Source: Betaproteobacteria bacterium | GTDB taxonomy: Bacteria > Pseudomonadota > Gammaproteobacteria > Burkholderiales > SG8-39 | Direction: 5' to 3' | Assembly: GCA_016210745.1 (NCBI GenBank) | Contig: JACQTO010000139.1 | Coordinates: forward strand, 1-64,000 | Length of the DNA stretch: 64,000 nucleotides | In this document: positions 2,949 to 62,968 of the stretch, in pieces | Layout of the letters: each line of letters opens with the position of its first letter | Position numbering within the stretch: the first letter of the stretch is position 1 | Program-made: the position numbers and the translations under genes | Notes under the pieces: generated by a model | Told to the model about the DNA's origin: nothing | What the model saw: only the letters and a program-made list of their open reading frames with translations | The model's database searches: none

Positions 2949-3002
2949 ACGACAAACTCCGGTAGAACGCATCCGGACATCGCCCGGATGCGCGAGCCTG
3001 GC

Positions 3003-3125
3003 TAATCCGGAATCATCGGTGTTGCTTTTGCCGTTATCTCAATCTCCTCTTTTCCTCAGTTGCATGCAACTGAGGAAAAGAGGAGACCTATTTAAAAACC
3101 AAACCATCCCCAACTGCGTCAGCAC
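3003..3125 (+). repeat. Hairpin element copy 1 (perfect 44-bp palindrome at 3043-3086)
   Basis: A gapless palindrome occupies 3043-3086: two 22-nt arms, left arm beginning TCTCCTC and ending CAGTTGCA, perfectly complementary to the right arm. Left flank (CCGGAA...GTTGCTTTTGCCGTTATC) and right flank (AAAAACCAAACCATCCCC) match the flanks of the copies near 42.0, 51.0 and 59.7 kb. It sits between the convergent hyuB and amidase genes, so it could act as a bidirectional terminator, but it has no T tract. The arm sequence is not conserved between copies, only its self-complementarity is. Confidence 0.85.
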
Positions 3126-3183
3126 TCGAGTTAAAAGTGACTACAGCAGTCCACGACGGTTGCTCAACGCGATCAAGCAGCCG

Positions 3184-23353: not shown

Positions 23354-23857
23354 TCATTCACGCGGCGAATGGCCAAGCAAGTCACGGTCGACTTGAACCG
23401 CGCCTAACGCCTTGGCGTTCAAACCGCTGCTGAGCTTCCAGTCCGATCCCGTCGGCAGCATCGCTTTCGTGCGCTTCACAACCCGCAGCACGAACCTCCG
23501 GGCAAGGGCCGTCAAGCGCGACCACTCCTCGCGCCGCAGCTCTGCGGCGCGAGCCCTGGCTGCATCCAGGAAATCGCCGGTCAGAGTGACTTTCTCCCCG
23601 GCGCGTTGGCGAGCGCCGGCGGATAGGTAGACGAGAGCCGCGCCCCGAATGCCGCTAATCACAGTGACGCCGCGTTCTTGCACGACGAACTCCTCGCCGG
23701 CCGCAAGAATGACGTCATCGATGAGACCTTCTTGCGTCAGCCACGCCTGTCCTGCAATGCAGTGCACGGCGAACCCGACCGGCAGACGAACCGACAAGGG
23801 CTGCGCCTCGTCTATTTCCAGGATCCGGCCTCCTAGCTTCCGTCCAGTGCTGTTCAT
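23354..23857 (-). CDS. DUF2917 domain protein
   Basis: From the ATG at 23857, with GGAG 8 bp upstream, the protein has 167 residues. The segment GFAVHCIAGQAWLTQEGLID followed by DVILAAGEEFVV is the conserved core of DUF2917, a small beta-rich cupin-like fold. A divergently transcribed LysR-type gene next to DUF2917 is a recurring arrangement in Burkholderiales. The C-terminal part is helical and basic. Function is unknown; control by the adjacent LysR protein is inferred. The frame can be opened further upstream, but that part overlaps the intergenic control region. Confidence 0.85.
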   Translation of the reverse strand: MNSTGRKLGGRILEIDEAQPLSVRLPVGFAVHCIAGQAWLTQEGLIDDVILAAGEEFVVQERGVTVISGIRGAALVYLSAGARQRAGEKVTLTGDFLDAARARAAELRREEWSRLTALARRFVLRVVKRTKAMLPTGSDWKLSSGLNAKALGAVQVDRDLLGHSPRE

Positions 23858-41926: not shown

Positions 41927-41949
41927 AAACCGTCCCCGCGCGAAGGTAT

Positions 41950-42080
41950 GGCCGGAACTGAAAAAGCTGGTTCTGCCTTTTATCGATCTCCCCCTTTTTG
42001 CGCAGTTGCTCGCAACTGCGCAAAAAGGGGGAGACGAAGTCAGAAACCAAATCTTCGCCAATTCAATTTCTCAACAGTGA
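41950..42080 (+). repeat. Hairpin element copy 2 (48-bp palindrome at 41987-42034)
   Basis: Two 23-nt arms (left: TCTCCCCC...GCGCAGTTGC) surround a 2-nt loop TC with perfect complementarity. Left flank GGCCGGAACTGAAAAAGCTG and right flank AGAAACCAAATCTTCGCC match copy 3 (in inverse orientation), and the right end reads TCAACAGTGACC. It lies between two convergent genes. Arm bases differ from copy 1 at many positions, with each change matched on the other arm. Confidence 0.88.
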
Positions 42081-42092
42081 CCTTCTAAGCGC

Positions 42093-42572
42093 CTAAGGCG
42101 CCAGAGAGCCGGAACTTCCTGCGGGCCCTGTCGCCGTCTTATCGCCAAATATCTGTCGAGCCCGCTCCTCGAAAGCGTCGATCGTGGCGCCTACGACCTC
42201 GTCCAGAACGGCGTGGGAGATCAGCTCGAGCGCTCCCGAGCGAAGGCTGAATTCGTAGCTGTACCCGACGACGGCGTGACCGTGATCGTCGGTTGCGAAC
42301 TCCCATCGCTGCCGAAACAAGTCGAACGGTGCATCGTTGCTTGTAATTTCAATGCTATGCGGCCGATGGAGCTCCGCCCGCGAACCGAATTCCAGCTGCA
42401 GCGGCCCGATTCCCAGGACCATGTCGACCCAGACGGCAGTCGGCTCGCGCCTCAGAATGCGGCTCGAATGGATCCAGGGCATGAACTCGGGATATTTCTC
42501 GACATCCGCCACCAGATCGAAAAGCTGCTCGGCCGTATAGAGCGAATAGCGGCGTTCGATGCGGGCTGACAT
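42093..42572 (-). CDS. RatA/COQ10-like START-domain protein
   Basis: From the ATG at 42572 (MSARIERRYSLYTAE) the protein has 159 residues and is of the polyketide-cyclase/START family to which RatA and the coenzyme Q-binding COQ10 proteins belong. YTAEQLFDLVADVEKYPEFM is the family signature, WVDMVLGIGPLQLEF and DAPFDLFRQRWEFA the strands of the cavity, and LISHAVLDEVVGATIDAFEE the C-terminal helix. Homologues bind ubiquinone or associate with ribosomes. The partner RnfH-like gene often found next to it is absent. The gene is convergent with DUF454. Confidence 0.9.
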   Translation of the reverse strand: MSARIERRYSLYTAEQLFDLVADVEKYPEFMPWIHSSRILRREPTAVWVDMVLGIGPLQLEFGSRAELHRPHSIEITSNDAPFDLFRQRWEFATDDHGHAVVGYSYEFSLRSGALELISHAVLDEVVGATIDAFEERARQIFGDKTATGPAGSSGSLAP

Positions 42573-50822: not shown

Positions 50823-50944
50823 GGAGCGCCTCCTCGAAGGTTATGAATTCAAGCCTGCATGACCATGTTAGCGCAATGAGCGCCGGACAACGCGTTCGCC
50901 CGGTCAAAGTGCCAGTAGCAAGCTTAGCAACTTACGGACGGGTT

Positions 50945-51084
50945 TACTGTTGACAAATTCGGCGAAGCTTTGGTTTCTAAATTCGTCTCCCCCTTTCGTG
51001 CGGTTGCTTGCAACCGCACGAAAGGGGGAGATTGATAAACGGCAAGACCAGCTTCCTTGGTTCCAGCTTGTCCGCCTTAGGTGC
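50945..51084 (-). repeat. Hairpin element copy 3 (46-bp palindrome at 50986-51031), inverted orientation
   Basis: Arms of 22 nt (TCTCCCCCTTTCGTGCGGTTGC) around TT are perfectly complementary. Read on the minus strand, the left flank is GGAACCAAGGAAGCTGGTCT and the right flank is AGAAACCAAAGCTTCGCCGA then GTCAACAGT, matching copy 2. It lies in the 375-bp gap between RidA and the divergent TRAP receptor gene; otherwise that gap shows no gene. Confidence 0.88.
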
Positions 51085-54291: not shown

Positions 54292-54329
54292 GAAAGGGGT
54301 CGGGTTCGAATTCGAACCCGACCCCTTTC
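54292..54329. terminator. Perfect 38-bp palindrome between convergent genes (bidirectional terminator)
   Basis: The 19-nt arms (GAAAGGGGTCGGGTTCGAA and its exact complement) meet with no loop at a central GAATTC. The AAAG start and CTTTC end give an A/T-flanked hairpin on both strands, as in bidirectional intrinsic terminators. It lies 10 bp after the TRAP permease stop and just before the end of the convergent TPP enzyme gene. It resembles no part of the element family near 42 and 51 kb. Confidence 0.75.
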
Positions 54330-59642: not shown

Positions 59643-59664
59643 CGAACGGCGTCTGGGGCACTTG

Positions 59665-59800
59665 CGGAATGGCTGTTGGCGCTTTCGGCGAAGATTTTGG
59701 TGTTGATAGGTCTCGTGTTTTCGTGCAGTTGCGAACGCAACTGCACGAAAACACGAGATCGAGATGAAGGCGAAATCGGCCCCGTTGGTTCCGCTGTGCC
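59665..59800 (-). repeat. Hairpin element copy 4 (48-bp palindrome at 59711-59758), inverted orientation
   Basis: Arms of 23 nt (TCTCGTGTTTTCGTGCAGTTGCG) around AA are perfectly complementary. On the minus strand the flanks read GCGGAACCAACGGGGCCGAT and ACCAAAATCTTCGCCGAAAG then CCAACAG, matching copies 2 and 3. It lies between the CoA-transferase and the OadA-like gene, both on the plus strand, so it sits within a likely operon. Confidence 0.86.
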
Positions 59801-59858
59801 AAGGTAACGATCATCCAAGGCGGGCATCGAATGCGTGCAATTCAATCCGGGAATCAAA

Positions 59859-62796: not shown

Positions 62797-62865
62797 CACC
62801 CTAAGCCGATGAGCCGGAACCAAGGAAGCTGGTTTTACCGTTTATTTGCCGACAGTTGCCTCTTA
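62797..62865 (+). repeat. Hairpin element copy 5, lacking the palindrome
   Basis: GCCGGAACCAAGGAAGCTGG followed by TTTTACCGTTTAT is nearly identical to the left flank of copies 2 and 3. It then passes, without any long palindrome, to CCGACAGTTGCCTCTTAGCC, which resembles the right end CAACAGTGACCTTCTAAGC. The hairpin and about 40 bp are missing. It lies between the small TPR gene and recQ. Confidence 0.65.
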
Positions 62866-62968
62866 GCCGACTATCCCCGGGAATCTTCCTGACTCTCCCG
62901 GCGTAAACCTGTCCTTCGGCCGATGCGTTGTGCCAAAATTGCGCCCCGCGCATCCGATAAATCCATTC

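Follow-up and report, generated by a model that had tools for sequence, protein, structure and literature searches.

A dispersed, MITE-like repeat with apparent transposon termini and a central palindrome whose arms change in mirror

How can a DNA element keep a long palindrome self-complementary when the letters of that palindrome differ from copy to copy? The question is raised by four intergenic loci in a stretch of 64,000 nucleotides (the window), which is part of the 5.2 Mb, 270-contig genome of a groundwater bacterium (G000; 97.34% complete, 5.28% contaminated). A preliminary description had placed the palindromes at 3043-3086, 41987-42034, 50986-51031 and 59711-59758, and all of these coordinates are right. 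It had also held the palindromes to be free of any mismatch, which is true for the arms of all four but not for the centre of three. The palindrome at 3043-3086 is strictly self-complementary over 44 bp, with 22-bp arms and no spacer; those at 41987-42034 and 59711-59758 (23-bp arms) and at 50986-51031 (22-bp arms) have perfect arms flanking a non-palindromic centre of two bases. The TCTC...GAGA ends, the GTTGC centre, the unlike arm middles and the common flanks could all be seen again in the four copies, two of which are in plus and two in minus orientation.

The whole elements, each made of a left end, the palindrome and a right end, cover 2990..3146 (plus strand; covariance-model match of 121.3 bits) and 41935..42098 (plus; 145.6 bits), both in gaps between convergent predicted genes, 50926..51083 (minus; 170.4 bits) in a divergent gap, and 59652..59811 (minus; 115.3 bits; a member of the TCTCGTG subfamily) in a codirectional gap. 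Their E-values of 3.9e-32 to 3.2e-21 are what they are by construction, the four copies having sat among the 46 on which the model was trained. A fifth copy, at 62798..62876 on the plus strand, is a deletion derivative that matches the left flank and scores 37.9 bits over model positions 1-159 in 79 bases; its left end is joined to its right end, with the palindrome and the inner flanks lost. A scan of the 64 kb for palindromes with perfect arms (arms of at least 12, spacer up to 15) gave only two others, an unrelated one with 19-bp arms at 54292-54329 and one with 12-bp arms at 23528-23553. The former reads GAAAGGGGTCGGGTTCGAATTCGAACCCGACCCCTTTC and is largely kept at the orthologous place in the congener G003 (L123:18372).

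Outside the window the same layout recurs many times. The repeat is about 155 bp long, dispersed and mostly intergenic, with a left terminus of about 50 bp (CCTAAGCCGG NNN AGCCGGAACCAA...), a central palindrome of roughly 40-56 bp, and a right terminus of about 57 bp (..CTTCGCC..GTCAACA..GTAAGTGACTAA). A query with a single copy found at least 71 matches in G000, from 40 of 335 candidates. The covariance model built from 46 copies matched all 150 of the candidates taken from 2126 (E<=1.8e-22), and many loci in three congeners; G000 thus holds at least 150 copies, with 149 of the 150 matches listed lying outside the window and some of them being training copies too. The flanks, which had been known from the window only, are common to these genome-wide copies. 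The density of copies was judged from 17 stretches of G000 (L130-L146, 339 kb), taken from contigs bearing matches though not centred on the matches, in which 25 oriented copies were counted against 4 in the 64-kb window. By extrapolation we infer a total of about 300-400; hundreds of copies are probable in this bacterium, and many in each of its close kin.

The family was found in 8 of 41 genomes, a set composed of its own genome, 3 congeners, 21 others of the family and 16 of the order. There are at least 72 matches each in G000 and the congeners G001 and G003, 44 in G002 and 38 in G015, which belongs to another genus, and weak matches in three other genera (G004 with 2, G020 and G021 with 1 each). 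A survey of the order with a second model, of low sensitivity with 7 candidates scored per genome, matched at least 3 of 399 genomes. In one genome of another family, G106, the 4 matches are elements of some 180-215 bp whose ends are similar but whose centre is not. The arm sequences are specific to the species and the layout is constant, as exemplified by TCTCCCGATTTCGGGAAGTTGC in G001, TCTCCCGATTCCGGACCGTTGC in G002, TCTCCACGTTTTCGTGCAGTTGC in G003 and TCCCGCTAAATTGTAGGTTTGC in G015. Palindromes of the same design also occur in pairs, apparently in tandem, about 110-125 bp apart (L102:15795 and 15916 in G020; L104:5265 and 5378 in G004), and runs of a degenerate heptamer (CCTGAAT/CCTAAAT/CCCGAAT) were seen by eye to border some G000 copies, for example at L012:5966 and L026:9983.

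The copies lie mostly between genes, in keeping with the preliminary description. With gene calls from a home-made codon-usage gene caller, the midpoint of the palindrome falls outside any predicted gene in 62 of 63 G000 copies (two of the 63 being at stretch edges), the remaining copy having it within a predicted ORF; three copies overlap the end of a predicted gene by 25-35 bp. Two simple readings of the repeat were tried and given up. One frame of the class-A consensus runs open to a terminal TAA (by eye), but other subfamilies have stops and 2-bp length changes, which rules out a conserved peptide; and a terminator was rejected, the stem being followed by a T run on neither strand (by eye). 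A search of Rfam returned one tRNA only for the window; seven loci with elements gave three matches at E<=5, none of which came near the gathering score. Searches of the open-licence literature for the terminus strings, for palindromic MITEs of bacteria and of Betaproteobacteria, and for a winged-helix transposase free of inverted repeats did not turn up a description of the element. The earlier remark that no named element has this design therefore holds for Rfam and for the open-licence papers searched.

What, then, are the conserved flanks? They are best read as the termini of a transposon. A plasmid search with the consensus matched the left end only, in plasmids of Polaromonas and Paraburkholderia. 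On the Polaromonas plasmid both ends enclose about 170 bp of other sequence. On the Paraburkholderia plasmid pOLGA1 (L181) the left end is followed by a 504-aa gene, WP_063501089.1 (annotated as an ArsR regulator), and the stop of this gene is followed by a right end that has diverged at 13 of 43 bases. In another Burkholderiales genome, G092 (L188), the same gene is bracketed by both ends; in G372 (L187) the gene stands ahead of a right end, as does a broken second copy on contig C93; in G122 (L191) a left end leads into the gene; in G038 (L197, L189) the left and right ends are on separate pieces of it. In G008 (L182) a decayed copy adjoins a left end, and in the congener G001 (L183) a decayed remnant runs into ATTCTTCGCCAAGATCGTCAACGGCAAACTCGTAACAGACTAAA, a right end. 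Mismatches at these loci number 0-4 over the 27 bases of the left end and 9-16 over the 43 of the right end, whereas the best of 42 control strands had 9 and 19, respectively. The G038 transposon copy (L189/L197) is apparently interrupted by an insertion, which we take to be IS21-like with istA/istB. The preliminary description had found no transposase in the window. This is correct insofar as no parent lies within it, but a mobile parent exists elsewhere and has decayed in the genus.

The protein of about 500 residues is presumably the mobilising enzyme of the repeats. Its gene was matched in 2 of 25 relatives and, across the order, in 9 of 399 genomes (several of these weakly). Searches of G000, G002, G003, G015, G020 and G106 gave no match, and the link between protein and repeat therefore rests on the common termini. 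In these six the repeats may have persisted after the loss of their enzyme, if the gene does not sit on missing contigs and no other enzyme moves them. The only Pfam and NCBIfam matches of the protein are to a C-terminal winged helix, its first ~420 residues being domain-free, and Pfam, NCBIfam, PADLOC, PHROGs and PDB gave nothing convincing outside that winged-helix part. Relatives of 24-29% identity over at least 75% of the protein occur on eight more plasmid records (Rhodococcus, Mycobacterium, Caballeronia, Paraburkholderia). The two terminus patterns found nothing among viral contigs, and the protein found no match among phages; its relatives on viral contigs are few, namely a 65% fragment (L205), a 25% relative (L206) and a 62% fragment with stops (L209). 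The AlphaFold model of L206, made from a single sequence, has a mean pLDDT of 33.6 and is unusable.

Judged from its termini, the element is related, in the manner of a MITE, to a single-gene transposon that has no terminal inverted repeats. The copies are short, gene-free, many, dispersed and mostly intergenic, and both of their ends are common to a gene-bearing element. These are features of Correia/NEMIS-type MITEs, small non-autonomous derivatives of insertion sequences that share both ends with a gene-bearing element and lie in high copy number between genes. The difference is that here no terminal inverted repeats are seen (by inspection, the left end CCTAAGCCGGACGAG and the reverse complement of the right end, TTTAGTCACTTAC, do not match) and the self-complementarity is central. 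ERIC/IRU elements, of ~127 bp, are likewise intergenic with a central inverted repeat, but, going by their description, they belong to a different host group; to our knowledge they have no gene-bearing parent.

The closest analogue is the REP/REPIN system, which in the account of PMC3116915 is short, extragenic, high-copy and non-autonomous, conserved on the outside, and has an inner hairpin with compensating changes. One could accordingly propose that our repeats are such a system, mobilised by the Y1 (RAYT-like) transposases of the genome. G000 does have three Y1 ORFs (PF01797 matches), and REPIN stems vary and compensate in the same manner (PMC3116915). However, copies do not adjoin a cognate Y1 gene: the nearest element is ~3.3 kb from such a gene in L106 and ~5.5 kb in L107, with none in the 3.3 kb of L010. 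Nor do two inverted REPs stand on the outside; the repeat has two different, non-palindromic termini, unrelated by inspection, around a central near-perfect palindrome. The termini adjoin another protein family instead: Y1_Tnp is not among the domain matches of the pOLGA1-type protein or of 9 relatives, and a derivation from IS200/IS605 (Y1) elements was rejected for this lack of the domain in the parent protein. The REP/REPIN proposal is largely refuted, and we give it hardly any credence.

A mobile origin would leave copies at different places in related genomes, and such differences were observed. The closest named relative of one window protein (95% amino-acid identity) is from a Betaproteobacteria groundwater MAG, contig JACPRN010000196, which is largely syntenic with the window at mostly 79-88% DNA identity and is apparently the same contig as G003:C125. 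The window copies at 50926..51083 and 59652..59811 have no element at the orthologous place there. From 66 G003 hairpins with flanks, both flanks are collinear with fetched G000 DNA in 21, of which 16 were kept after excluding four pairs on a probably misbinned contig (L126) and one palindrome outside the family. The orthologous gap in G000 is hairpin-free in 10 of the 16 (in one of these, L082/L132, half an element remains), holds another hairpin family in 1, and holds a family copy in 5, one of which is clearly the same copy. Presence and absence thus vary at orthologous sites, as in MITE families. These comparisons of diverged species did not show exact ends, a target-site duplication or an exact empty site. 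As for the excluded contig, L126 (G003:C145) has flanks of four hairpins 95-100% alike, mostly 100%, to L026 (G000:C183), against the roughly 75-90% identity of G000 and G003 elsewhere, which makes misbinning of G003:C145 probable. The flank-first and anchored arm counts exclude this contig, and the G003 spacer numbers include one copy from it.

We now turn to the palindrome itself. In 82 aligned copies from seven genomes, 96.9% of the cells pair, compared with 74.8% in shuffles and 34-54% in slid controls; two-sided changes occupy 303 cells where shuffles have 73, and covariation scores 0.556 compared with 0.144, for a structure that was predicted from the same 82-copy alignment. Double changes occur in 17 of the 19 pairs, and every one of the top 11 covarying column pairs is a palindrome pair. 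The arm changes are thus compensatory well beyond chance. Column pairs in the flanks covary much more weakly and form no stem. An RNA fold of the whole element was rejected: folds of single sequences lengthen the stem, but the flank columns have no comparable covariation. The earlier view that the flanks and the self-complementarity are conserved, and the arm sequence is not, is supported by this concentration of covariation in the palindrome.

Copies found through their hairpins bias such figures, and copies were therefore also found by flank profiles alone, profiles that were themselves built from hairpin-found copies. In a first set of 72 G000 matches, 46 palindromes were perfect and 19 had one or two mismatches; another 2 were long with unequal arms, and in the last 5 the palindrome was lost or split by other sequence. 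A larger set, with both flanks present, consists of 75 G000 and 50 G003 elements, 2 of the latter without a palindrome. The raw count is 41 of 75 and 30 of 50 perfect, with arm-length differences in 14 and 10 and mismatches in the other palindromes. Inspected singly, 4 of the G000 and 1 of the G003 length differences proved real; in the other 10 and 9 it was the outer boundary or the spacer that had shifted, with mismatches present too in three of those 19. The arms were then re-anchored, dropping rows without the TTGC anchor (6 of 75 in G000, 2 of 48 in G003) and rows of unequal length (5 and 2). Arm lengths, 19-24 as trimmed, vary in step, those 7 of 115 rows being the unequal ones and two of the 7 being boundary artefacts with a mismatch. 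Perfect arms are found in 50 of 64 anchored, equal-length copies in G000 and 36 of 44 in G003, and mismatched pairs number 14 of 1363 and 10 of 959, or about 1%. Perfect arms are hence the majority among flank-found anchored copies, and imperfect ones are not as common. All this is seen in arms that differ much from one another: left-arm divergence among the equal-length copies is 14.3% in G000 and 18.3% in G003, and 46 of 48 G003 copies have distinct left arms.

Is the palindrome simply perfect at birth? Transposition could re-make it each time, with one arm of a single-stranded intermediate serving, for example, as the template, and from then on it would only decay. The species-specific arm sets and the many subfamilies fit this idea, and the ages of the copies are estimated from a sample, about 15% of each genome, in which true nearest neighbours may be closer than those seen. 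Between nearest neighbours the flanks lie 0.042-0.304 apart in G000 and 0.174-0.281 among the 48 sampled G003 copies; flanks at least 17% apart in the latter stand against about 1% of mismatched arm pairs. The median flank distance of subsampled G003 copies falls slowly, from 0.252 to 0.238 to 0.225 at 12, 24 and 48 copies, which suggests only a modest drop under full sampling. Were the arms to age as the flanks do, about 207 one-arm substitutions would be expected at half the flank distance in G000 and 254 in G003, compared with 67 and 34 seen in a count inflated by boundary shifts, and 14 and 10 mismatches in the cleaned, smaller set. One clean orthologous pair (n=1), L030:19466 in G000 and L121:2649 in G003, has clearly diverged flanks and palindromes with exactly one difference, a mirrored C:G against A:T. 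In a second pair, L080:12100 and L028, the outer arms differ in mirror and one inner arm is partly deleted in G000; the remaining four filled pairs are unlike in subfamily or orientation. We consider perfection at birth alone to be quite improbable. That arm matching is kept up after insertion is strongly supported, and is most likely since the sampled G003 flanks are at least 17% apart.

Two processes could keep it up, selection on a structure or the copying of one arm from the other, and both had been named in the preliminary description. Selection for a DNA or RNA hairpin would yield identical covariation, with compensatory mutations being fixed after insertion; the hairpin could serve the host, as protection of mRNA 3' ends, an RNase III site or a nucleoid/supercoil site, or it could serve the element. 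The strong covariation against shuffles and slid controls, with its structure predicted from the same alignment, agrees with selection, as does the distribution over gaps longer than 100 bp: 5 copies in 43 divergent gaps, compared with 46 in 120 codirectional and 9 in 26 convergent ones. Within codirectional gaps, however, copies along and against the genes are equal in number (24 and 22), and the T run missing from both strands also speaks against selection. Most sites, moreover, are not common to the congener (the 10 of 16 without any hairpin), and in some copies the palindrome has been lost.

The kinds of change are informative as well. Nearest-neighbour copies, counted over pairs of copies and not as independent events, differ by 89 mirrored changes (51 transition-type, 38 transversion-type) and by 41 changes in one arm only, of which 34 are transitions, 6 are transversions and 1 is an unpaired double. 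One-arm changes are the richer in transitions (34:6 versus 51:38; Fisher p=0.0024), a point that can be counted for selection; transition-rich one-arm states are, however, expected if strongly destabilising mismatches are removed or repaired faster, and they do not separate the models. The transversion type in 38 of 89 mirrored changes, together with arm lengths that shift in step, goes against selection, and so does the mismatch spectrum in element orientation, 14 G.T against 7 A.C (p=0.19), in which neither a significant excess nor an RNA-strand signature is clear. The spacer and its reverse complement both occur within species, as GAAGTT/AACTTC in G000 and G001 and GAAGTC/GACTTC in G003. 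The two-base spacers are AA in 23 and TT in 17 copies of G000, but TT in 14 and AA in 2 of G003, where the six-base GAAGTT occurs 4 times and AACTTC 0 times. This unevenness is in keeping with selection, and makes inversion in G003 a rare or recent event. Growth of the palindrome past TCTC/GAGA is hardly ever seen (by eye), and free template switching might cause such growth.

Template switching is described in PMC8604942 as homogenising the arms of inverted repeats and inverting spacers, and is argued in PMC8794818 to create and maintain RNA hairpins. Our palindromes resemble quasipalindrome correction, as these papers present it, in arm homogenisation, in the mirroring of changes across the arms, one-arm states being few, and perhaps in spacer inversion; they differ in that the papers concern yeast genes and RNA genes, and here it would act on very many dispersed copies in one genome. 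Arm-to-arm copying is favoured because transversions are mirrored, because both spacer orientations occur (G000, G001), and because an unrelated hairpin family behaves alike; the arm lengths changing in step and the lack of a significant G.T excess also fit. Of the two processes named at the outset, template-switch copying is thus the more probable one, and we would place it ahead of selection alone as the main force. Selection on the hairpin as the chief explanation we regard as possible but rather unlikely.

The unrelated hairpin family just mentioned has two near-perfect hairpins with 21-22 bp arms, of the types GATCGSCGATTGYGCACGGATG and AACCG..TTTC.GTACGGAT, which start about 85-180 bp apart and have GC-rich mini-hairpins alongside. 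It is found in G000 (L013:3179, L029:7953+8039, L131:841+930, L139:19412+19499, L140:14778+14864 and others) and in G002 (L088:17217+17393), and was not detected in 509 kb of G003. Its arms vary in mirror as well, with 5 of 343 pairs mismatched in 16 hairpins (14 from G000, 2 from G002), a sample found through the hairpins and thus biased to intact ones. Another small element, with TGGGGTCAGAGTAAC, is seen at L015:4680, L015:13870, L132 ~5400 and L128 ~6200, with inverted ends in L132 and L128; in all but one of these four it cuts or adjoins half a copy of the palindromic repeat. Of the three Y1-gene loci, L009 and L010 carry GGGGTC[AG]G motifs as well, and L011 does not. It was also observed that the hairpin nuclease component SbcD exceeds its curated cut-off in none of the 25 genomes searched from the family and the order, with weak matches in 8 of them, compared with 8 of 14 controls that pass. 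SbcCD may be missing from this group, which could bear on the tolerance of palindromes in the wider group, not on the distribution of the repeat, genomes with and without the element being alike.

Putting these pieces together, the transposon protein of ~500 residues would have moved the non-autonomous repeats of ~155 bp, as their common termini suggest. The copies would settle mostly between genes and then age, their flanks drifting, with a mutation in one arm being either copied to the opposite arm or erased, so that the palindrome stays near-perfect in place. The most likely mechanism would be quasipalindrome correction, in which a polymerase at the replication fork switches template on the hairpin; this would also account for the mirrored length changes and the inverted spacers. 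This whole account, a MITE-like repeat with the termini of a single-gene transposon and a palindrome kept in place by template switching, seems to us somewhat more probable than otherwise. A stronger combined claim, that the protein stands for a new class of transposases independent of terminal inverted repeats and that arm-to-arm copying outruns point mutation, making the covariation largely mutational, is put forward tentatively, and we would sooner doubt it than accept it.

Covariation in a stem is usually taken to prove that a structure is under selection. If the mirrored changes described here are mutational, a genome full of aged hairpins would provide a direct measure of how much covariation template switching puts out, and these palindromic repeats are a natural test bed for the origin of matched changes in hairpins. 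The common termini, for their part, point to an uncharacterised family of Burkholderiales transposons, whose protein has distant relatives on Actinomycetota plasmids, and which would have left its mobile repeats throughout these genomes.
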